From the IMG/VR virus record IMGVR_UViG_3300044714_000073, positions 1-22,671 of that record: a DNA stretch of 22,671 bases; one strand, 5' to 3'. The position numbers and the translations under genes were made by a program. The notes under the pieces are model-generated. The model saw nothing but the letters and a program-made list of their open reading frames with translations. It made no database searches and was not told the DNA's origin. Positions 213 to 11,126 of the stretch are shown here, piece after piece. Positions within the stretch are counted from its first letter, which is position 1, and each line of letters starts with the position of its first letter. The stretch comes from a virus.

Positions 213-1907
213 CTAGCGCGCGATCAGCCCGGTAGCCAGCGGCTTGGCGGTGGCCGCGCCGAGCACCGACGTGGCGGCCTTCATCACCGCCCGGTCGGAG
301 GCCCCAGGACCGCCGCCGATCGGGGTCACCCGCACGTACAGCACCACGTTCCCCGCCACGCCCGTATTGACCGCGCGCACCGGCCCGATCGAGAGCGTGC
401 CGTAGGGCAACGCCTGGTGGAGCGTGAGCTGACCCGAGGCCGGGCCGGTCACGGTCACCGTGCCGATGCCCTCGATCCACGCCACGATCAGCCGGGGCAG
501 CGCCGAAGGGAACGGCAGCTCGAACGTGAGGTGAGCGCTGCCCTGCGAGTCGCCCAGCGCTGGCATTACCGCCGTCGCAACCAGCGTGTCGGTGTCGTCT
601 TGCAGGATCACGTCGTTGGCCAGGGTCACAATCTGGAAGGACTCCAGCCTGTTGACGCGGGCCTCAAGGGCGTCTACCCGCTGCACGACCGGGATGAGGT
701 CAGCCATGCTCACCTCGCCCGGCACGCCCTGCGGCCCGGCCGGGCCTCGGATATTCCCGTCGAGGTTGTAGACCCCTGCGGGGAGCACCGTGTAGACGTT
801 GCCGTGGCCGGGAGCGTCCGGGTTGACCAGCAGCGCCAGAATCTTGTCGCCCTCGACCCCGGTGTTGGGCAGCGGCGGCGCGATCGGGGACCAGTGCCAC
901 GTCGAGCCCGGTATCCCCTGGACGCCCTGAATGCCGACCGGGCCAATGGGCCCCTGGTCGCCCTGGTCGCCCTTGTCGCCCTGCGGCCCCGTGACCTTCA
1001 TTGCTATCCACGGCTGCGGGGCGGCTCCCGTGACCCCGAGCCAGACGATCGCCTGGCCTTCGTAGAAGTCGTCGGGCTTCGATATGAGGACCGCCTCACC
1101 GACCTTCATCTGGTAGTTGGCGGGCGGTTTGCCCGCGCCGTCGAACCCGGCCGGGATGATGCCGTCGAGGATCGAGGCCACGTCCTGCGCGCCCTTGGTG
1201 TAAACGTCCATCACGATGAACGAGGGTGCGCCGGGGTCGCCCTGGTCGCCCTGCGGACCTGGCGGGCCGTCCGGGCCTTGGATGCCCTCGGGGCCGGGGT
1301 CGCCGGTCGGGCCGGGGTCGCCGACCGGGCCGGGTGGCCCCTCGGGGCCGGTGGCACCTTGGGAGCCGGTCGGCCCGGCGGGGCCGGTCGCGCCGGGCGT
1401 GCCGGGCTGCCCGATCTCGCCGCGCGCCCCCTGGGGGCCGGTGTCGCCCTGGTCGCCCTTGGGGCCGGGGCTGCCCGCGTTCCCGGTGAGCCCCCGGTCG
1501 CCGATCGGGCCGGGCGGGCCGGTGTCGCCGATCGGGCCTCGGTCGCCGGGCGGGCCGCGCATCTGGCCTGTCTCGATCCAGCCGCCGGGGATGGTCGACG
1601 GGCCGAGGAACAGCCACAGATACCCGTCCGCGCGGTTCTCGACCGACTGGCCGACGCCGACCTGTAGGTCGGCCTCGGGTGTCCGCACGTCGTCCCACCC
1701 GGCCTCAATCAGGCCGTCCTCGGGCAGCTCGCTCGGGTCGCGGTTGGCGAACGAGAACACGATCGTCGTCGTGCCGCCGGGGTCGCCCCGCTCCCCGCGG
1801 GGGCCGCGCAGGCCGGGCGGCCCCATCACGGGCGGGCCGACCTCCGCGCCGACCACGCCACCGGGCAGGCGTACCGCTACGGTGTGGCCATCCTCGACGG
1901 TCGTCAT
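213..1907 (-). CDS. Collagen-like tail fibre / minor tail protein
   Basis: A 564-residue fibre protein. Gly-X-Y collagen-like blocks lie at about residues 24-45, 118-228, 307-334 and 388-398. Three non-collagenous modules interrupt them (about 46-117, 229-306, 335-387), each ending in a GPxG-type re-entry into collagen. A short heptad segment (about 400-424, with [14 protein letters not shown]) probably trimerises the stalk, and a beta-rich C-terminal domain (about 425-545) probably forms the tip. In phages such proteins form trimeric fibres or decorations of the tail tip; receptor binding is inference. The ATG at 1907 overlaps the upstream stop as ATGA. The module at 46-117 clearly resembles one in the other collagen protein (3924-5348). 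Plus-strand ORFs here are only mirror images of the Gly/Pro codons. Confidence 0.85.
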
Positions 1908-2299
1908 GCTGGCACCAGCTCTCCCTCACGCGGCCCGGTGTCGGGGTCGCTCCGCAGCGGGTCGGTAACGCGGGCCTTGATGTCCATCGGCCCGGCCAGC
2001 ACCATGACGCCCTCGCCCGCTGCGGGCTGGCGGCAGGCGACATCGTAGGCCGCTGGCCGGCCTGGGGTGAGGCGCGCGGTGTCCTCCCCGCGCAGCCACA
2101 ACCGGACCCCGCCCTCGTCGGCGGCCCACTCGAAGTCGAGCCGCAGCGAGCCGGTGGTGACGGTGGCCGCGAAGGTCCACAGCGCGACATCGACGGCCTG
2201 GCCGTCGTCGCCGAGCAGCACCAGCCGGAACGCGAACGGGTCGCCCGCGACCGCGCGCAGCGTGGCCTCCATCGGCCAGGCGTCGACCACCGTTGGCAT
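1904..2299 (-). CDS. Small tail-tip-associated protein of unknown function
   Basis: A 131-residue soluble protein starting [20 protein letters not shown]. It alternates beta-type segments ([50 protein letters not shown]), suggesting a compact beta-sandwich of the kind found in small baseplate or fibre-attachment proteins. It lies immediately before the large collagen fibre and overlaps it by ATGA, so it may anchor or chaperone the fibre, but that is inference from position. Six bases separate its ATG from the stop of the Pro/Gly-repeat gene upstream. I see no signal peptide, membrane segment or recognised catalytic motif. Confidence 0.7.
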
Positions 2300-2305
2300 G
2301 GCTGG

Positions 2306-2839
2306 CTACTTGGGCTCGCGCTCGGGGAAGCCGGGGCCGCCCTGGTCGGGTGCGCCGGGTGCGCCGGGGGTGCGGACCCAGGCCCAGACCAGCGAGGCCC
2401 CGTAGAGCACCGCGACCCAGGTTCCGGGCAGACCCCGCTCGGGATAGCGCGGCTCGTAGCCCTCCTCCACCTGCGGGGGCTCGGGGTGGAGCGCGTAGGC
2501 GGTGAACTCGTCGGCCCCATCGGTGACCCGAATCCGGGTCGTCATGGCGAGGTCGGGCACCTCGGGATGGCCGCCGAGGTCGTCGGGGTCGTCCACGACC
2601 GGGTAGACCGGGCGCGGTGGGCGGCCGACTGGCGGGAGGCCCTGGCCGGGCCGCTCGGGCCAGCCGGGGATGACGGGGCCGCCCCCGATGCCGGGCGGCA
2701 CCTCGGGTAGGCCCTGGTCGGGGTAATCGGGGAAGCCGGGCGGGAAGACCGGCCCGCCGCCGATGCCGGGCGGGAGCCCCTGGTCCGGGTAGCGGTCGGG
2801 CACCCAGACGCGGACCTTGGTGTATCCCTCGACGTACAT
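2306..2839 (-). CDS. Proline/glycine-repeat protein, unknown
   Basis: A 177-residue protein that I do not recognise. The N-terminal half carries imperfect repeats: YPDQGLP-type segments at about 18-23, 39-44 and 64-69, each followed by a Pro/Gly stretch. PGIGGGPV occurs twice (about 24-31 and 49-56), and a degenerate YPERGLP occurs near 132. The C-terminal half (100-160) is less repetitive, with a hydrophobic patch VAVLYGASLVWAWV at about 142-155 that could be one membrane segment or a buried strand. The ATG at 2839 has an AGAGGA ribosome-binding site a few bases upstream. It lies between the lysin and the second fibre operon segment, so a structural role is possible. An internal ATG at residue 99 could start a shorter product. 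Confidence 0.65.
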   Translation of the reverse strand: MYVEGYTKVRVWVPDRYPDQGLPPGIGGGPVFPPGFPDYPDQGLPEVPPGIGGGPVIPGWPERPGQGLPPVGRPPRPVYPVVDDPDDLGGHPEVPDLAMTTRIRVTDGADEFTAYALHPEPPQVEEGYEPRYPERGLPGTWVAVLYGASLVWAWVRTPGAPGAPDQGGPGFPEREPK

Positions 2840-2870
2840 GCTGCGTCCTCTCGGTTGGTTGGTGGTTGGT

Positions 2871-2887
2871 CCCGACGCTACGCCGGG
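2871..2887 (-). terminator. Short hairpin after the lysin gene
   Basis: On the minus-strand RNA, CCCGGCG and CGUCGGG can pair around a UAG loop: seven base pairs including one G-U. It lies 13 bases past the lysin stop codon. There is no U-tract; the next bases are a repetitive ACCAACCACCAACCAACC run leading to the next ribosome-binding site. It could be a weak terminator or an RNA-stability element. Confidence 0.25.
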
Positions 2888-2900
2888 CCGCTGGGGGTGC

Positions 2901-3749
2901 CTACCTGGCTGAGTTGGCCGCGCCGCGACTGGCCCACGACCACGAGCCGGTGTTCACCGGCTTCTGGTACGTGCAGGGCGCGCCCGACCCGTTGGTGTAG
3001 GCGAGCATCACCAGGTTGGCCGGGTTGATGGCGATGCCGACGCCGCTCTTGGCGCCGCTCTGGGTGGAGTCGACCGCGTATGCCTCGGCCCGGCCGGGCG
3101 GGAAGTACATCACCTGGCCTCGCGTTGACAGCCAGGCGAAGTGCGGGTTCCCGTCCCGGTCGTAGGCCACGTCTGCGGACACGTCTACCTCCTGTGATGG
3201 TGCCGGGGCGGGCGAGCTGCCGCCGCCCCCGCGGGCGATTTCGATGATGCGATCCATCGGGAAGCCGTTGCCGCAGTCGTGGTGATTGCCGCCCCCGCTC
3301 CCGAAATTCTTGTGCTCGCACAGGCCCTTGGTGGAGCCCTGCGCTTGGGAGCTGGTGAGCTGGGTGAGCGGGATGCCGAACTGCTTGGCCAGCTCGCCCG
3401 CCAGCCGCCCGGCCGCGGTGAGCATGTCGCCCTTGGACAGCCACGTCGACCGCGACCAGCCCGAGGCCGCCCCGCTCGGGGTGCAGAAAGCGATCGAGAG
3501 GGCCTGGCCGTTGTAGTTGGCCTGCGCCCACGCGCGGTCGCCGTCGCGGACGAACTGGGCCGCCCAATTCGCACCGTGAGACATGTCGACCGCGAAGTGG
3601 TAGCTCACCTTCGAGCTCGGATTGGTGAGCCAGTTCCGCAGCGACTCGGCGGTCTGCGATCCCTCGGTGGTGTGGAACGCGATGAGGCGGCGGTTCAGGC
3701 CTCCGCTCGAGTAATGCTGGCTCGGCCACCAGGCCCTAGTGACTGCCAT
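2901..3749 (-). CDS. N-acetylmuramoyl-L-alanine amidase (endolysin)
   Basis: A 282-residue peptidoglycan amidase of the Amidase_2/PGRP type, expected to cut the amide bond between MurNAc and L-Ala at lysis. The fold is visible as LIAFHTTEG (probable zinc ligand H26), VSYHFAVD (about 48-55), CEHKNFG (probable ligand H146) and HHDCGNGFP (D158, equivalent to the DPG aspartate of AmpD-like enzymes). A Gly/Ser/Pro/Ala linker (about 174-186) leads to a C-terminal domain of about 95 residues, beta-rich with W and Y, that probably binds the cell wall. No signal peptide is seen, so a holin is expected. The ATG at 3749 has GAGGGAGGA seven bases upstream and overlaps the preceding small gene by 14 bases. 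It could instead be virion-bound, given its place among fibre genes. Confidence 0.92.
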   Translation of the reverse strand: MAVTRAWWPSQHYSSGGLNRRLIAFHTTEGSQTAESLRNWLTNPSSKVSYHFAVDMSHGANWAAQFVRDGDRAWAQANYNGQALSIAFCTPSGAASGWSRSTWLSKGDMLTAAGRLAGELAKQFGIPLTQLTSSQAQGSTKGLCEHKNFGSGGGNHHDCGNGFPMDRIIEIARGGGGSSPAPAPSQEVDVSADVAYDRDGNPHFAWLSTRGQVMYFPPGRAEAYAVDSTQSGAKSGVGIAINPANLVMLAYTNGSGAPCTYQKPVNTGSWSWASRGAANSAR

Positions 3750-3912
3750 CGTCCGGTCCTCCCTCGTGCTCTAGGTCGCCGTGCTGGTCGGCCTCGGGCA
3801 GCTGCACCTCGTCGGGGTCGACGGGCTCCAGGTCGGTGTCGCTGGTGTCGCCCGTGTAGGTCTCGTTCTCGCGGACCAGGCGGCGGTGCCGCCCCGGTCG
3901 GATCGGGCTCAA
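3736..3912 (-). CDS. Small acidic protein, unknown
   Basis: A 58-residue protein when started at TTG 3912, which has GAGGAGG five bases upstream. The frame extends further up to an ATG at 3966, but that start lies inside the fibre gene and lacks a comparable site. The N-terminus is basic (MSPIRPGRHRRLVREN) and the rest is very acidic (D/E-rich from about residue 18 to the end), with little hydrophobic content, so it is probably disordered. It sits between a fibre gene and the lysin, overlapping the lysin start by 14 bases. That hints at translational coupling and possibly a fibre-assembly or lysis-linked role. No family recognised. Confidence 0.6.
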   Translation of the reverse strand: MSPIRPGRHRRLVRENETYTGDTSDTDLEPVDPDEVQLPEADQHGDLEHEGGPDDGSH

Positions 3913-3923
3913 TGCGGCCTCCT

Positions 3924-5348
3924 CTAGGTTCGGCCCCAGCGGGGCGCGGTGGGTAGCGGTAGCCAATCATCGACCACCGACACGGGGCTGATGTCCGGGT
4001 TGCGCACCGGGAACTGGATATTGAGGCGGGCCGCCCCGCCCGGCCACCCGTTCGCCACGATGCCGAGGCCGCCCGCCGTGGACATGTAGAACCGGCTCGG
4101 GGTTACCCACTGGTTGGCGGCCCAGTTGCCATTGGGCGCGCACGGCCCGCCGACGATCCCCGGCGGCCGGTATGCCTCGGGGAGGATGACGAAATCGGCG
4201 AACTGCTGGGCTCCGGACCAGACGGTGCCGACGATCACGACCATCGTGCGGTCGGCGTTGAAGCGGTACTGGGGGACCAGCTCGCCCCCGCCGTTGTAGG
4301 TAAACCCGTTGATCAGGAGGGGCCGCATATCGTGCCACTGGTCGAGCGGGGGCAGGCCCCCGGACGGGCCGGGCGGCCCCTGCTCGCCCTGCGGGCCTCG
4401 GTCGCCCTGGGGGCCGCGCTCGCCGGGCGGCCCCTGCACGACGCCGGGGCTCAGCCACGGGCCGCCTGGCCCGGTGTCGCCGACCCAGGTCCACAGCGCG
4501 CCGTCCGGGTCGTAGACCAGCGACCAGCCGCGCTCTAGCTGGTGGCCCTCGGCGGGGCGGCCGGGGCCGTCCCACCCGGCCTCGATGTACCCGTCGCCGG
4601 GCAGGTCGGCCGGGGTCTTGATCTGGCCGAAGCTCCCGACGATGATCGTGGCCGCGCCCGTGGGGCCGGTCGGTCCTTCCGGGCCGGGGCCGCCGGTCGG
4701 GCCTTCCGGGCCGGTCGACCCCTGGGGGCCAGCGGGGCCGGGGCCGCCGGGTGGGCCGTCCGGGCCGGGCGGGCCGGGCGGGCCTTGGGGGCCGTCCGGT
4801 CCCAGCGGCCCCTCGGGGCCGGGCGGCCCGCCGGGCTGGCCGTCGAGCCCAGGCGGTCCCTGCGGGCCTGGCATCCCCTGGGGGCCTGGGGGGCCAGGGG
4901 GTCCGGGGGAGCCCGGTGGGTAGTCCTGGGCGCGCGGCACGAGGGTCATATCGAGGGCGGTCGCTGCGCCCGCGGGGACCTCGATCGTGCCGAGCTGCAC
5001 GCCGAGGTGGTCGCCCCCGGCGGGGTGGACCTGGAGCGTGAACAGGGCGGCCTCGGGGTCGGCGATGATGGCCCACAGCTCGTCGGTGCGGTCGTCGTCG
5101 GGGTCGCCGGGCCGGGCGGTGGCCTCCATGCCGACCGGGGAGGCCAGCACCGCGACCGTGCCGTCCCCGCAGTCGGCCAGCGCCAGCCACCCGGCGTCGA
5201 CCGAGACCGCGAGCCCGAACCCGGCCGACAGCACGGCGGGGTTGACGACGCCCGTCACCCGCCCGGCCAGCGCGGTGATCACCTGGCGGTCGTCCCAGGC
5301 CGAATAGCGGCCGCTCTGGCCCCAGCGGACCAGCGTCGGTGTGGTCAT
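3924..5348 (-). CDS. Collagen-like tail fibre with shared N-terminal tail-tip domain
   Basis: A 474-residue fibre. Residues 1-142 form a globular domain that resembles the N-terminus of the preceding gene product (5351-6256): both start MTTPT and share WGQ-G-Y-DDR-VITA and later GW-A-C-D blocks. A collagen-like Gly-X-Y block follows (about 146-231), then a 75-residue interruption module (about 233-305) homologous to one in the 213-1907 fibre. A second short collagen block (306-330) and a C-terminal beta-rich head (about 335-474) complete it. The likely job is a trimeric tail-tip fibre anchored by the N-terminal domain, with the C-terminal head as candidate receptor binder (inference). ATG 5348 lies two bases after the upstream TAG, with GGGAG overlapping that stop. 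A longer open frame to 5693 lies in the wrong frame for its neighbour and is not used. Confidence 0.85.
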
Positions 5349-5350
5349 GG

Positions 5351-6256
5351 CTAGCTCCCGATGTCCTCGACGGTGAGGGTCTGCACGTAGGGTCCGAGGT
5401 CGTTGTAACCGCCGGGCCGGATGATGGCCGTGCCGTTGGACCAGATCCGCCCGTCGAACACCCGCGTGACCGCCGGGTCGTTGAGGTTGTGGCGGAACAC
5501 GTAGTCGAGTTCGGAGATGACCGGGACGGTGCCGCGCGCCCAGCAGATCACCGCGCCGCGCCGCATGATGCTCGCGGTGTTGGCCTGGCCTGCGGTGCGC
5601 TCCCCGATCCCGATGCGGCCCTCCAGCGTGTGCGGGGGCCACGGCCCGCCGATCACCGAGGGGCACGCCGCGAAGTAGCGGACGCGGTACCACTGGCCGG
5701 GCTCGATATAGACCGGGATCGACTCCACGCCCCGGCCGACCGCTCCCCCGAACGTGGTGGCCTGGTAGTCGTTGAAGCCCTGTGAGGCGGGCATGTACGT
5801 GACCGACATCGCCCGCCGCTCGATCGAGGCGTCGACCGGGGTCAGCGTCATCTGCGAGGCCAGGTTGTTATTGGCGTTCGCCACGATCCACAGCAGCGGG
5901 ATACCGGACAGCGCAGCCGTCGCGGCGGCGGGCAGCACCGACAGCGCCCAGGTGCCCTCGTCCGGGTTGGTCGAGCACCACACCACGTCCTGGCGGGAGC
6001 CGCTGCCGGGGCCGGGGTTGGCCTGGACCACCACGTCGTCGCGGGAGCCCACCACGGCGCTGGTGAGGTCGTCGCAGCTCGCCACGCCGACCCAGCCGCC
6101 CCGGATGATGATCTGGAGCCCGGTCCCGGCCTCGGCGCGGACGGGCCGCACCAGGCCGACGCGGGCCGCGGTCACCGCGGTGATCACCGCGCGGTCGTCG
6201 GAGGCGTCGTAGTTGCCTGCCTGGCCCCAGGCGAGCTTGCCGGTCGGTGTGGTCAT
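5351..6256 (-). CDS. Minor tail / baseplate protein sharing a domain with the fibre
   Basis: A 301-residue protein with the same N-terminal domain as the next gene product (about residues 1-140; MTTPT start, [19 protein letters not shown], then G-GL-GW-VA-C-D spacing). The C-terminal half (about 150-301) is different and beta-rich, with a pattern like a receptor-binding or carbohydrate-binding head. There are no collagen repeats. ATG 6256 is preceded by GGGAG with good spacing, and nine bases separate it from the upstream stop. By position it belongs to the tail tip. The pair probably arose by duplication of an anchor domain onto different distal parts. Confidence 0.75.
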
Positions 6257-6265
6257 CGGGTCTCC

Positions 6266-7492
6266 CTAGCGGGGCTGGAGGTTGCGGTGGAACATGGCCG
6301 AGGTCGTCTTGTCGAGCCTGCGGAAGGCCCCCGCGACGGTCTCGCGGGTGACCTGCGGCGGGTTGAGCAGCGCCAGCGACCAGGTGGCGGTGCCCTCGCC
6401 CGCGTTGATCTCCAGCTCGTTGAGGCGGGCCTGAAACTCGATCCCATCGGGGATCAGCGGGGTGACGGCGTGGACGGTCACGGTGTCGCCCACGCCGTAG
6501 CTGGTGATCACCGGGTAGGACTCGGGCGGGCTGCCGGTGATCTGCTGGGCGGGCACCGAATTGATCACGGCCTGGGTGAGCGCCCGTTCGCGTAGCGTCT
6601 GGATCAGGATGGTGCCCGGCCAGTCATCGACGGCATCGAGGCGGGGCAGGCGCGGGTTGGCCATGACCGCGGTCGCCACCGGGCGGGGGGCGGGCGGCTG
6701 GAGCGGGTTGCCCACGGGCGTGTCGGCGGGCAGGTCGCCGACCGCGAACGTGTGCGTGCGGAGCTGGTCGGAGTCGAACGTGGCCCGGTAGCTCAGCACC
6801 GCGCCGGGCACCGACACGCCGAGGCCGGCCCCGTCGTCGCCGACGCGGGGGCACACGATCCGCAGCGTGCAGACCGGGCGGCCCTGGGGGGTCATCCGGT
6901 ACTCGGTGCGGAACTCGGGGCCGTTGAGCACCCCGGCCAGGTTGACGAGCAGCTGGCCCCGCGAGCCGCCCTCCAGGTACTCGTACTTGCGGTCGCGGCG
7001 GACCTCGTTAATCGCCTCGGTCTGGATCACCACGCCCACGTCCTCGACCGGCTCCGCGAGCACGCGGGCGATGTCGGTCTGCTCCCAGTTGGTGAACTCC
7101 CCGAACGGGTAGCGGTCCCACTGGCGGCGGGTGAGGTAGCCGGGCAGCTCCAGCAGCGTGAACTGCACGTGCGCCGAGCCGTTCTGGTCTTGCAGGCCGG
7201 TGGGCACGCCACAGAAGACCGGGAGCCCGTCGTAGAACGACCAGAGCCGCCAGCTCCACAGGGTCAGCATGGTGTCGGTGTCCAGCCCGCACGGCAGGTT
7301 GACCGTGACGTTGCCGTAGCCCCAGGCGTTCAGCCGCTTGACGCAGTAGAACGAGGACACGTCGACCATGCCGAGCCGCTGGTAGGGGGGCACCATCGTC
7401 TCGGCCCAGAACGTCCAGCGGCCGGGCAGCGGCACGTGCGGCCTGGTCGGGTCCAGCGCGAGGGGCAGCGTGGCCGGGGTGATCAGACCCAC
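6266..7492 (-). CDS. Tail-tip protein, ReqiPepy6 Gp37-like candidate
   Basis: About 408 residues when started at GTG 7492, which has GGAGG five bases upstream. An earlier GTG at 7504 is possible. It overlaps the distal tail gene by 10 bases. The N-terminal part describes a beta-rich module with LWSWRLWSFYDGLPVFCG (about residues 79-96), like the segment in Gp37-family tail proteins of actinophages that reads as a strand, DG, then PVF-G. The middle holds RDRKYEYLEGGSRGQLL and an Arg/Val-rich conserved core, and the end carries INAGEGTATWSLALLNP. In siphoviruses this position, right after the distal tail protein, is the tail hub or Tal. Family assignment rests on remembered pattern and position. 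Confidence 0.65.
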   Translation of the reverse strand: MGLITPATLPLALDPTRPHVPLPGRWTFWAETMVPPYQRLGMVDVSSFYCVKRLNAWGYGNVTVNLPCGLDTDTMLTLWSWRLWSFYDGLPVFCGVPTGLQDQNGSAHVQFTLLELPGYLTRRQWDRYPFGEFTNWEQTDIARVLAEPVEDVGVVIQTEAINEVRRDRKYEYLEGGSRGQLLVNLAGVLNGPEFRTEYRMTPQGRPVCTLRIVCPRVGDDGAGLGVSVPGAVLSYRATFDSDQLRTHTFAVGDLPADTPVGNPLQPPAPRPVATAVMANPRLPRLDAVDDWPGTILIQTLRERALTQAVINSVPAQQITGSPPESYPVITSYGVGDTVTVHAVTPLIPDGIEFQARLNELEINAGEGTATWSLALLNPPQVTRETVAGAFRRLDKTTSAMFHRNLQPR

Positions 7493-8424
7493 GTCGACCT
7501 CCACGCCAGCGCGATGGACCCCTGCCCGGCCGACCGCAGGAACCACCGCGACGAGCTGGCGGGCGGGATCATCATCGGGCGGGAGCCGGGCAAGATGTAG
7601 CTGGCGCGGGACAGGCCGCCCGCGGCCTCGGCCACCAGGCTGGCGGTGCTCACGAGGATTTGCATCCCGGCGTCCAGGGCCGCTATCCGGATGATCCCGC
7701 TGCGGTTGTCGGTGATCGCCGACTCGGACAGCGGCCCCTCATAGAGCGCGTAGACCGGCGCGTCGTAGTTGCCCTCATTGCGCAGCGTGGCGGCGTTGGC
7801 GATGTAGGGCGAGGCGTATTGCCAGTTGTACTCCTTGGGGTAGTCCCGGCCGGTGGTGCCCTCGGTGACGTTGGTCAAGGTGCCGCTCTGCCAGGTGCCC
7901 GCGTACAGCGCGGGGTCGGCCGCGGTGAGCGCGACCTGGTAGCGGAAGCCGCCCGAGCCCAGCGGGGTGTACCGGAACAGCTCGGTCCCGGCGCGCACGT
8001 CGGCGGTGAGCACCCGCTGGAGGTCGAAGTCGCCGACCGCCAGCAGCACGGGCTCGCGGTTGGCCGACCGGGCGGCGAGCTGGTCGCGGAGCTTGCCCAG
8101 CTCGTCGCGCGGCCCGGCCGCCACGCCCGTGATGGTGATCATGCGCTGGCGAAGCACCTTCGGCCCCCAGGCCGCGCCGTCGCTGATCACCCGCTCCACG
8201 TCGTTGCCGTCGATCGGCGGGGAGTCCAGCCACCCGGTGACGCGCTCCACGACCAGCCACAGGCCGCTGTCCTGGTCGCCGGTATTGAGCCAGAGGCCGT
8301 CCCAGATCACGGGCACCAAGGGCCGCGTGGCGGGCCGGGCGGCCCGCTCGTACACCCAGTCGAAGTCGCGCTCGTAGCCGCGCGTGGCGTCGGCCAGGCT
8401 GAGGCTCACCGGCATCTTGGTCAT
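7483..8424 (-). CDS. Distal tail protein (Dit-like)
   Basis: A 313-residue protein beginning MTKMPVSLSLADATRGYERD. ATG 8424 overlaps the tape measure stop as ATGA; the long upstream extension of this frame to 10197 is only a shadow of the tape measure gene. The N-terminal half has the alternating strands and the conserved DSPPIDGNDVERVISDG then MITITGVAAGP pattern seen in Dit-like proteins, and a later galectin-like half ends in PGSRPMMIPPASSSRWF. In siphoviruses Dit forms the hexameric hub joining the tail tube to the tip. The position straight after the tape measure is the usual one. Confidence 0.75.
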   Translation of the reverse strand: MTKMPVSLSLADATRGYERDFDWVYERAARPATRPLVPVIWDGLWLNTGDQDSGLWLVVERVTGWLDSPPIDGNDVERVISDGAAWGPKVLRQRMITITGVAAGPRDELGKLRDQLAARSANREPVLLAVGDFDLQRVLTADVRAGTELFRYTPLGSGGFRYQVALTAADPALYAGTWQSGTLTNVTEGTTGRDYPKEYNWQYASPYIANAATLRNEGNYDAPVYALYEGPLSESAITDNRSGIIRIAALDAGMQILVSTASLVAEAAGGLSRASYILPGSRPMMIPPASSSRWFLRSAGQGSIALAWRSTWV

Positions 8425-11126
8425 GCGACACCCCCAGCCATCGCCCACGACAGCTCGCGGGAGACCAGCGCCGCGACCTGCTGCTCGTCCTGGTGCTCGC
8501 GCGGGTAGACGTTGATCACCGGGCCGCCACCGGCGCCGCTCATCCCGGCGGCCGACGCGCCCAGGCCGCCCCCGGCCAGCGGCGAGGAGAACGAGGGCCC
8601 GTGACCCAGGTCGATCGAGTCGACGCCCGCCAGGCCCAGCTCCAGGCCCGCCACCATGTCCTCGCCGATCCCGGCCATCAGCGTGGACGGCGAGCCGATC
8701 CCGAAGAACCCCTTGATGGTGCCGAGGATCGGCCCGCAGACGTTGGCCTGTATCCAGCTCCCCAGCTCGCGGGCCTTTTCGAGGCCGACCTTGAGGCCCT
8801 CGATGATGTCGGCCCCGAACGTGATCGTGATCGAGCTGGGGGAGCCGATCCCGAGCCCGGACTTGAGCCAGCCGACCACGGGGCCGGTGACGTTGGCCTG
8901 CACCCAGCCGCCGAGCTGGCGGGCCTTTTCGAGGCCGACCTTCAGGCCCTCGATCATGTCGGCCCCGAACGTGATGGTGATGGTCGACGGGGAGCCGATC
9001 CCGAGGCCGCCCTTGATAAACCCGGTGACGGGGCCGGTGACGTTGGAGCCGATCCAGCCGCCCATCGACTTGGCCGCCGACAGGCCGGACTTGAGGCCGT
9101 CGATCATCGACGCCCCGGCCGACCGGGCGGTGGACACCATCGAGCTGAACCCGGACGACACCGCGCTCTGAATCTGGCCCATCGCGGTGTTGATCACGCC
9201 TTGCATCTGCGACCAGGTATCGCGGACGTGCCCGCCGATCGCGGAGGTGGCCGAGGAGACCACGCCAACCAGGCCGGTAAAGGCCGCCGACACCGCGCCG
9301 CCCAGCAGCCCGGCCACGGCGCTGGCGGCCTGGCCGAGGAGGCCGAACGCGGGGATGAGGCCGGGCGAGTTGCCGGTGATCCAGTGCCACAGCTTGGACA
9401 CGATGCCGATCAGCCACTCGATGGCCTGGCCCAGCAGCTTGAGCGGGTTGAGTACGGCGGTGATGGCCTGCACCCAGGTCAGCAGCTTGATGGCCATCTC
9501 GGCGATCGGGACGATGATCTTGACCACGATTTCCAGCAGGAACCCGATGACCTTGATCGCGCCGACGATCACGGGCACCAGCACGTTCAGCGCCGACGCC
9601 AGCCCGGACGCGCCGCCCTCCCCGGCCCCGCCGCCAGCCGCCTGGCCGAACAGCTGCCCGAGGGGGGCCAGCAGCTTGGACAGCTCCTTGATCACGGGGG
9701 CCAGGGCGTCCCCGATCGCCTTGACGATTTCCCAGAGGGCCAGCGCTAGCGGCTTTAGAGCCCCCTCCCATAGCCCCTTGAGGATCGGCATCAGGAAATC
9801 GAGAATCCCCTTGCCCAGCCCGATCATGGCCTCGCGGAAATCGGAGCTGGCGATCATTAGCGCGGCGAGCCCGGCGACCACGGCAGTCACGGGCAGCGCC
9901 AGGCCGCCGAGGGCCGCGCCGACCCCGCCAATCGGGCCGATCGCGCCACCCAGGCCGGGGATCAGCTGCACGGCTGCGGCCTTGCCCACGGACCCCAGGC
10001 CGCCCGCCACGAGCTTGGCCGGGCCGAGGAGGTTGGACAGCATCCCGCCGAGCACGGGAATCTGGGTGAGGATGCCGGGCGCGACCAGGGCCGTCAGCGC
10101 AGCGGCCCCGGCCAGGATGGCGGGACCGAACCGCTTGATCGCCTCGGTGATCCGCTCGACCTGCTCGGGCTTGAGGGCTTCGATCCACTTGGCCCACTGG
10201 GTGATCATGCCGGTGAGCGGCATCACCAGCTTGGAGACCGCCCCGCCGATGGCCTCGAAGATGGGGGCCAGCGCCCCGCCGGGAGCGACCGCGGCGGACA
10301 GCGCCTTGGCCATGTCGTAGAGCTGGATGATCAGCGGGCCGAACGCCTGCACGAGGCCCTGGCCTACCGACAGCTTGATGTCGTCAATGAGCCGGGGGAA
10401 GCTGCGCAGCACCTTACCCGGCTCGGTCATGGCCTCGGCGTAGGCCCCGGCTACGGTCTTGCCCGATTCAAGCACCGCATTAAGCACGGCCTGGGACCGC
10501 TCGGCGTCGGTCAATTCCTTAGTGGTTTTCCCGACGCTTTTCGCGTATTCATCGACGGCTTTACCGGCCTGCACATTCAGACCGGCATTGCGCAGCACCA
10601 TTGAATTCTGAGTCGTAATTCCGTGGACCAGATCGTCCAATACCTCGGTGGAATTGCGGCCGGAAATAACGGCGGCGTCCTGGGCCACGCGGGCGAGGTC
10701 GGTGGACTTGGCCAGGTCCAGGTTGTTCCGGGCGAATTGCGCGACGAGGGTCTGCGCGGTGCCGGTCTCGATGCCCTGCTTGCGCACGGCCTGGACCGTT
10801 TTCTGCATCGCGTCATACGACAGGTTGTTCGCCTTGGCCAGCGCCCGCAGCGAGGCGTCCATCTCGCCCGCCCGCGCGGCGGTGCGGAAGGCTTCGACCC
10901 CGAACCCGGTAGCGGCCACCGTCGCGCCCGCCAGGCCGGTGGCCACGGCCTTGCCGACCGACACGCCGAGGCCGCCGACCGCCTTGAGCCCGCTCGTCAT
11001 CGAGCCGCTGATCCCGGTCGCGGCCTGCTGGCCGGCCGCGGTCGCGGCCCCGGTGATCTCGCCCTTGAGGCTGCTCGTCTCGGCGCTGACGGGGATCGTG
11101 AGCTTGCCGTAGGTGTAGCTAGCCAC
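8421..11126 (-). CDS. Tail tape measure protein
   Basis: A 901-residue protein that sets tail length and is ejected ahead of DNA. The start is GTG 11126, overlapping the chaperone stop by eight bases (GTGGCTAG). The N-terminal ~330 residues contain the conserved TP901-type core (about 100-240, with RNNLDLAKSTDLARVAQDAA and GITTQNSMVLRNAGL). Several long hydrophobic stretches in the middle (about 340-450 and 510-600) resemble membrane-inserting segments typical of the family. Near the C-terminus GIGSPS occurs three times at exact 50-residue spacing, coded by near-identical 150-bp units. Part of the conserved core has markedly lower GC than the rest. The C-terminus ends in Gly/Ala-rich sequence. 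Confidence 0.95.
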   Translation of the reverse strand: MASYTYGKLTIPVSAETSSLKGEITGAATAAGQQAATGISGSMTSGLKAVGGLGVSVGKAVATGLAGATVAATGFGVEAFRTAARAGEMDASLRALAKANNLSYDAMQKTVQAVRKQGIETGTAQTLVAQFARNNLDLAKSTDLARVAQDAAVISGRNSTEVLDDLVHGITTQNSMVLRNAGLNVQAGKAVDEYAKSVGKTTKELTDAERSQAVLNAVLESGKTVAGAYAEAMTEPGKVLRSFPRLIDDIKLSVGQGLVQAFGPLIIQLYDMAKALSAAVAPGGALAPIFEAIGGAVSKLVMPLTGMITQWAKWIEALKPEQVERITEAIKRFGPAILAGAAALTALVAPGILTQIPVLGGMLSNLLGPAKLVAGGLGSVGKAAAVQLIPGLGGAIGPIGGVGAALGGLALPVTAVVAGLAALMIASSDFREAMIGLGKGILDFLMPILKGLWEGALKPLALALWEIVKAIGDALAPVIKELSKLLAPLGQLFGQAAGGGAGEGGASGLASALNVLVPVIVGAIKVIGFLLEIVVKIIVPIAEMAIKLLTWVQAITAVLNPLKLLGQAIEWLIGIVSKLWHWITGNSPGLIPAFGLLGQAASAVAGLLGGAVSAAFTGLVGVVSSATSAIGGHVRDTWSQMQGVINTAMGQIQSAVSSGFSSMVSTARSAGASMIDGLKSGLSAAKSMGGWIGSNVTGPVTGFIKGGLGIGSPSTITITFGADMIEGLKVGLEKARQLGGWVQANVTGPVVGWLKSGLGIGSPSSITITFGADIIEGLKVGLEKARELGSWIQANVCGPILGTIKGFFGIGSPSTLMAGIGEDMVAGLELGLAGVDSIDLGHGPSFSSPLAGGGLGASAAGMSGAGGGPVINVYPREHQDEQQVAALVSRELSWAMAGGVA
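8651..9100 (-). repeat. Three tandem 150-bp units inside the tape measure gene
   Basis: The motif coding GIGSPS (plus-strand GAGCCGATC) ends at 8700, 8850 and 9000, exactly 150 bp apart. The GGGCCTTTTCGAGGCCGACC stretch recurs at 8771 and 8921. Aligned by eye, the 85-bp segments from 8771 and 8921 differ at roughly ten positions, while the third unit is more diverged. At protein level each unit reads like EGLKVGLEKAR-LG-W-QANV-GP then GLGIGSPS. Such close units in the tape measure gene fit recent duplication or gene conversion. Confidence 0.85.

Follow-up and report, generated by a model that had tools for sequence, protein, structure and literature searches.

Related modules interrupt two collagen-like tail fibres of a soil phage and may act as inline chain-register units

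Why a phage should break up its collagen-like fibre proteins with repeated noncollagenous modules is the question raised by the stretch of DNA analysed here (the window), a 22,671-base IMG/VR record of an uncultivated soil phage (IMGVR_UViG_3300044714_000073; G+C content 72%). Its minus strand, which carries all the window features given below, encodes two collagen-like proteins, P1 (213-1907, 564 amino acids; Pfam Collagen PF01391, E 1.9e-22, 79.2 bits) and P2 (3924-5348, 474 amino acids; E 2.2e-13, 50.2 bits), both scoring above the cut-off of 27.2 bits. Both products are tail fibres, and the soil phage that encodes them is tailed. A sequence-only reading of this DNA, whose coordinates and frames for both products proved correct, had proposed that the two fibres are built from related interruption modules and that these are knobs swapped between the fibres to alter host binding. 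The relatedness holds for three of the four interruptions, M1, M2 and M4; the swapping and the knob function are not supported by the comparisons described below. We consider it somewhat more probable than its negation that the collagen of these fibres is broken by copies of a homologous domain of ~77 residues acting as an inline trimerisation and chain-register unit, with the C-terminal tips binding the host, a proposal that draws on a predicted fold and on analogy with known collagens.

P1 contains the interruptions M1 (residues 46-117; window 1557-1772), M2 (residues 227-306; 990-1229) and M3 (residues 335-386; 750-905), and P2 contains M4 (residues 232-305; 4434-4655). Judged by shuffle and profile comparisons of their sequences, M1, M2 and M4 are homologues. 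M1 and M4 are 42-43% identical, and in Smith-Waterman comparisons made with the GPxG exit into collagen removed, none of 2000 shuffles per pair scored as high as M1-M4, M1-M2 or M2-M4. Profile-profile comparison between the orthologue sets gave E values of 2.5e-25, 3.2e-10 and 1.3e-12 for the same pairs. The sequence-only reading also held that two further modules of P1 keep the common plan, which is borne out for M2 and not for M3. Against M1, M2 and M4, 1889, 559 and 1051 of 2000 shuffles scored as high as M3 itself, with profile E values of 0.097 or worse, and the one thing M3 has in common with them is the exit into GPxG. With scores at chance level, M3 is rejected as a further copy; it belongs to a different family whose profile matches P1 orthologues only (9 distinct sequences). 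In the relative L009 (1-763) a P1 orthologue lacks M3, and its two flanking collagen stretches are contiguous.

The modules sit inline with collagen, and their family is spread through the collagen fibres of soil viruses. A search with the unit alone, which had been suggested as a check along with copy number across relatives, found 49 loci in IMG/VR and one in GTDB genome contigs. Building the profile up over three rounds brought the collection to 73 distinct complete modules in virus fibres; relatives differ in copy number and in whether M3 is present. The 73 exclude identical copies as well as modules judged incomplete (model start beyond 8, end before 70, or E above 1e-6). Some contigs had been fetched twice or more (L004/L028/L060, L005/L019, L006/L017, L007/L016 and L008/L029/L062), P1 and P2 do not differ between L005 and L006, and L061 is almost the same as L004. 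Of the 73 modules, 68 are flanked on each side by four or more Gly-X-Y triplets; among 78-residue windows drawn at random from the same proteins this is true of 160 of 2600. Contig ends truncate two of the remaining five, and the other three adjoin collagen on the C-terminal side only. The modules align along their length, with G21, D28 and W66 (M1 row numbering) invariant in every row and the exit G, P and G columns kept in at least 90% of rows. Three loci (L033, L034 and L053) encode other fibre proteins, of 918 to 1401 residues as stop-to-stop frames, which have two or three modules with collagen between.

Database searches place this domain in no named family. Pfam scans of the 73 modules up to E 10 returned stray matches to seven families (best MbtH, E 0.041), none of them carbohydrate-binding; the best PHROGs match was phrog_33894 (E 0.0084, 6 of 73 modules), and scans of P1 and P2 segments against both collections gave stray matches only. 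Among named phages, tblastn with M1 or the whole of P1 found nothing at E 0.001, and with M4 four chance-level records only; the module profile matched five chains among PDB sequences (best E 0.5), and megablast of the whole window against 50,697 phage records gave zero matches. Among the open-licence PMC papers listed in literature searches, none on the module family was found.

A consensus module query did reach one named phage, Eggerthella phage LE2-3 (E 0.2), which led to a shorter unit of ~55 residues: putative tail fiber protein 1 of this phage (QXJ36642.1) has a unit of the same plan between Gly-X-Y stretches. A profile of 16 such sequences aligns with the long modules at an hhalign E of 2.8e-10, and still at 1.3e-7 once GPxG is taken out (none of 200 column shuffles as high), the significant alignment covering the C-terminal half only. 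The two are thus homologous by profile and both embedded in Gly-X-Y collagen; they differ by some 20 extra central residues in the long modules. M3 resembles the short unit only marginally (E 0.01; score 15.01, the best of 200 column shuffles reaching 14.86). With the short unit detected by tblastn in 171 named phage records, the module family is, on these profile comparisons, the long variant of a widespread, unnamed collagen-embedded unit, and a real building unit of phage collagen fibres.

What such a unit might do is suggested by its predicted structure. From the 73-row alignment AlphaFold2 models M1 with a mean predicted local distance difference test (pLDDT) score of 92.1, as a compact domain of four strands with a short helical turn. 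When this model was compared by VIA-align with 310 chains, the top six of the 13 rows listed were collagen XV/XVIII (multiplexin) trimerisation domains (Z 3.5-3.7, 50-52 residues aligned), followed by Geobacillus virus E2 ORF18 (7chu, Z 3.4), whose nature we sought in the literature and did not find, and by a baseplate chain of a siphophage (2.4). Of 50 BFVD rows listed, 27 are named collagen (best E 2.6e-3; query template modelling (TM) score ~0.3 to 0.54). Like the module as modelled, the multiplexin trimerisation domain (3n3f, 3hon, 3hsh) is a small beta domain that adjoins collagen; unlike it, this domain has 54-56 residues (one solved human domain), and the sequences show no similarity beyond chance. 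The likeness is therefore a lead and not a demonstration, given the low Z scores and the negative sequence comparison. On the favoured reading, three chains would meet at each module, and each module would nucleate the triple helix on both its sides and reset the register there, allowing a long fibre to assemble with its chains aligned. Host binding would fall to the C-terminal tips. In evolution the tip is replaced while anchor and module are retained.

The tips do look, from sequence comparisons among relatives, like the part that is changed, rather than the modules. P2 consists of an N-terminal anchor (residues 1-143; 4920-5348), collagen stretches (4650-4913), M4, nine further triplets (4353-4433) and a C-terminal tip (residues 333-474; 3924-4352). 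On the same anchor and module there are 19 P2-type tips, a count that takes in the two downstream tips of L004 and L008; they sort into three classes and two singletons: class A comprises the window, L007 and L025, class B has five members and class C nine, with zero BLAST similarity between classes at E 0.001. The tip end of P1 appears to have been exchanged too, since DNA identity between the window and L004 is higher over residues 398-550 (93-98%) than over residues 2-397 (76-93%), and L005 has only 60-76% over residues 398-550. Among P1 orthologues the median ratio of nonsynonymous to synonymous substitution rates (dN/dS; pairs with dS at most 0.02 or at least 2 excluded, the pairs not being independent) is lowest of the regions tested in M1 (0.26) and highest in the tip (0.62). 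Within class C the P2 tip has a median of 0.35, below both module and anchor. At three loci (L046, L047 and L049) P3-type and P1-type genes are present, but the stretch separating them yielded no P2-type gene, defined as an anchor and a module sharing a frame; P2 may thus be dispensable, or may have been acquired and lost again.

Whether modules move between fibres can be read from a tree of the 73 distinct modules, in which many forks are unresolved because it has just 79 columns. M1 of P1 (10 rows), M2 of P1 (10 rows) and M2 of P1B, the P1 protein of a second phage group (6 rows), each form one clade (support 100/99), and the six position labels require 7 changes on the tree, taken together, against a mean of 41.4 in shuffles. 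Approximately unbiased (AU) tests reject M1 and M4 of the window as sisters (p 3.5e-4) as well as a tree holding all three window modules together (p 6.7e-59). Module swapping between the window phage's own fibres is rejected on these position-specific clades and AU tests. The sole hint of exchange between fibres, seen in the module sequences, is old and lies in the second phage group, where 14 P2 modules and five of the six first modules of P1B form a joint clade (95/93). Since the AU test rejects neither a P2-only clade (p 0.33) nor a single clade of all P1A modules (p 0.146), such exchange is possible and not demonstrated.

Several results weigh against modules that set chain register. Foldseek with the M1 model listed 151 PDB matches at a limit of E 10, not one of which reached E 0.001, a VIA-align Z below 4 may mean just a common arrangement, and the chitin-binding region of chitinase B (residues 453-500) is in the same fold list (Z 2.1, 40 residues aligned). 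Compared by sequence with the collagen XVIII trimerisation domain, the module reaches an hhalign E of 0.16, with 61 of 200 shuffles as high, and the short unit is matched by 186 of 300 shuffles; homology of the module to that domain was not found at the level of sequence, the scores being at chance. In P1, M2 (median dN/dS 0.52) evolves more loosely than M1, and the P2 module (0.48) is no more constrained than the anchor (0.49). The chitinase entry would suit modules that bind receptors or carbohydrates as knobs on the shaft and pass from one fibre to another, altering host binding, as the sequence-only reading supposed. So would the conserved aromatic residues, with W66 in 73 of 73 rows, the P1B first modules inside the P2-module clade, and the streptococcal phage Tal proteins, which have carbohydrate-binding modules between collagen linkers (PMC9437275). 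However, the position-specific clades and the rejected M1-M4 sister relationship speak against this view, as do the Pfam scans without a carbohydrate-binding family and the replacement of tips rather than modules between relatives; we therefore think such knobs quite improbable.

Alternatively, the modules could serve passively, as spacers that give the shaft length or hinges that let it bend, and leave trimerisation to other parts such as the P1 helix and the tips. The predicted, coiled-coil-like helix of P1 (residues 401-421; 645-707) could trimerise alone, the variation of copy number and M3 among relatives would fit a spacer, and in lactococcal phage BK5-T a unit of collagen linker plus 3-beta domain occurs 10 times in succession, providing length (PMC9692632). 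A passive spacer does not readily explain why specific core residues and the collagen exit are so strongly conserved, nor the confident, compact fold whose matches are led by collagen trimerisation domains. We regard a purely passive role as unlikely, although spacer and register unit are not mutually exclusive. That there is no domain at all, the similarity being low-complexity or convergent sequence at collagen edges, has an example in M3, which matches at its exit into GPxG only; it is refuted for M1, M2 and M4, whose similarity persists with the exit removed, and sits poorly with a family that aligns along its length and is predicted to fold confidently, so that its probability overall is negligible. 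On balance we continue to favour the inline trimerisation and register unit.

In the relatives L004, L008 and L061 the break in the P2 gene falls within the module, after the second predicted strand and before the third (split regions 4053-6093, 4626-6660 and 2759-4798, respectively), and leaves two intact reading frames. The first open reading frame (ORF1; in L004 it ends at 5285) closes with the first half-module and a class B tip. ORF2 (5296-6093 in L004) starts with an ATG ten bases past the ORF1 stop, with GGAGG between; its product opens with the second half-module (MSEPPRDGSLWVY...), after which come collagen and a class C tip. ORF2 looks maintained, because its half-modules in L004 and L008 are identical at 33 of 33 residues at a dS of 0.28 and its tip has a dN/dS of 0.32. 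The simplest history is that a new tip was inserted into a class C fibre and the old end left as a gene of its own. One may go further and suppose that the module is the phage counterpart of the multiplexin trimerisation domain, setting chain register inline, and that the L004 and L008 half-modules, made as separate polypeptides, rejoin in trans, the tip protein docking by completing the module; this combined scenario is speculative, and we give it little credence as a whole.

Between its modules P1 carries 37 Gly-X-Y triplets from M1 to M2 (1224-1556) and 10 from M2 to M3 (900-989), and it ends in a tip (residues 425-564; 213-635) that is beta-rich in a low-confidence model. In this full-length P1 model (mean pLDDT 43.9) the helix and the tip are visible, and the folds of M1, M2 and M3 are not comparable within it because of that low score, so that the fold check proposed with the sequence-only reading covers M1 alone. 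Most PDB matches to the full-length model are jelly rolls of picornavirus capsids (query TM 0.10-0.14), which indicate no more than that the tip may be a beta-sandwich. The tail genes also include those for the tape measure (8421-11126), a minor tail protein (6266-7495) and P3 (5351-6256). The N-terminal ~140 residues of P2 and P3 are 38% identical over 141 residues, which suggests that the two proteins sit on one kind of attachment site. An amidase endolysin gene (2901-3749) separates P2 from P1, with two small genes, also on the minus strand, between it and P1. By eye, the amidase gene varies in sequence among relatives (L004, 6181-6978 region; L008, 6803-7606), and the versions of L004 and L008 have a common C-terminal part that is absent from that of the window. 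Just downstream of P1, an open frame leaves the window end (1-212) and shows by eye one hydrophobic stretch, VLIVLGVFAVLMVGAIG; judging by its sequence it is possibly a small membrane protein, for example a holin. The one clue to a host, a module match in a 6.4 kb contig of an Acidimicrobiales metagenome-assembled genome, is insufficient to name it.

Phage fibres commonly contain collagen-like stretches, and it is a general question by what means the three chains of long bacterial collagens stay in register. A conserved domain that has no Pfam or PHROGs family and runs straight into the triple helix is a concrete and easily expressed candidate for a register unit, one that could serve in recombinant collagens. 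The relatives of this phage show tip replacement on a constant shaft, once with the joint inside a module.

Known fibres offer several points of comparison. In staphylococcal phage 80alpha, a siphophage, the upper fibre FibU is like P1 and P2 a collagen-like tail fibre (PMC7048315), unlike them in having a BppU-like N-terminal domain and then one short collagen stretch, and the accessible part of that account makes no mention of an inline module. The Tal proteins of lactococcal (C41431, BK5-T) and streptococcal phages alternate collagen-like linkers with 3-beta domains (PMC9437275, PMC9692632), and these are, like the modules, small beta domains between collagen linkers of tail adhesion proteins; in a two-protein search the module profile found no match to the repeats of BK5-T ORF18 (best domain E 0.4). 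The side tail fibres of E. coli O157:H7 prophages, EPclA and EPclB, resemble P1 and P2 in combining collagen stretches with noncollagenous domains, EPclB having two collagen domains with a Pf2 repeat between (PMC3368898), but their PfN, PfC and Pf2 domains have Pfam families, none of which was found in Pfam scans of P1 or P2. In these E. coli prophage collagens PfC and a coiled coil are trimerisation modules (PMC3368898), and in animal collagens it is likewise a trimerisation domain that selects and aligns the chains (PMC5126661).

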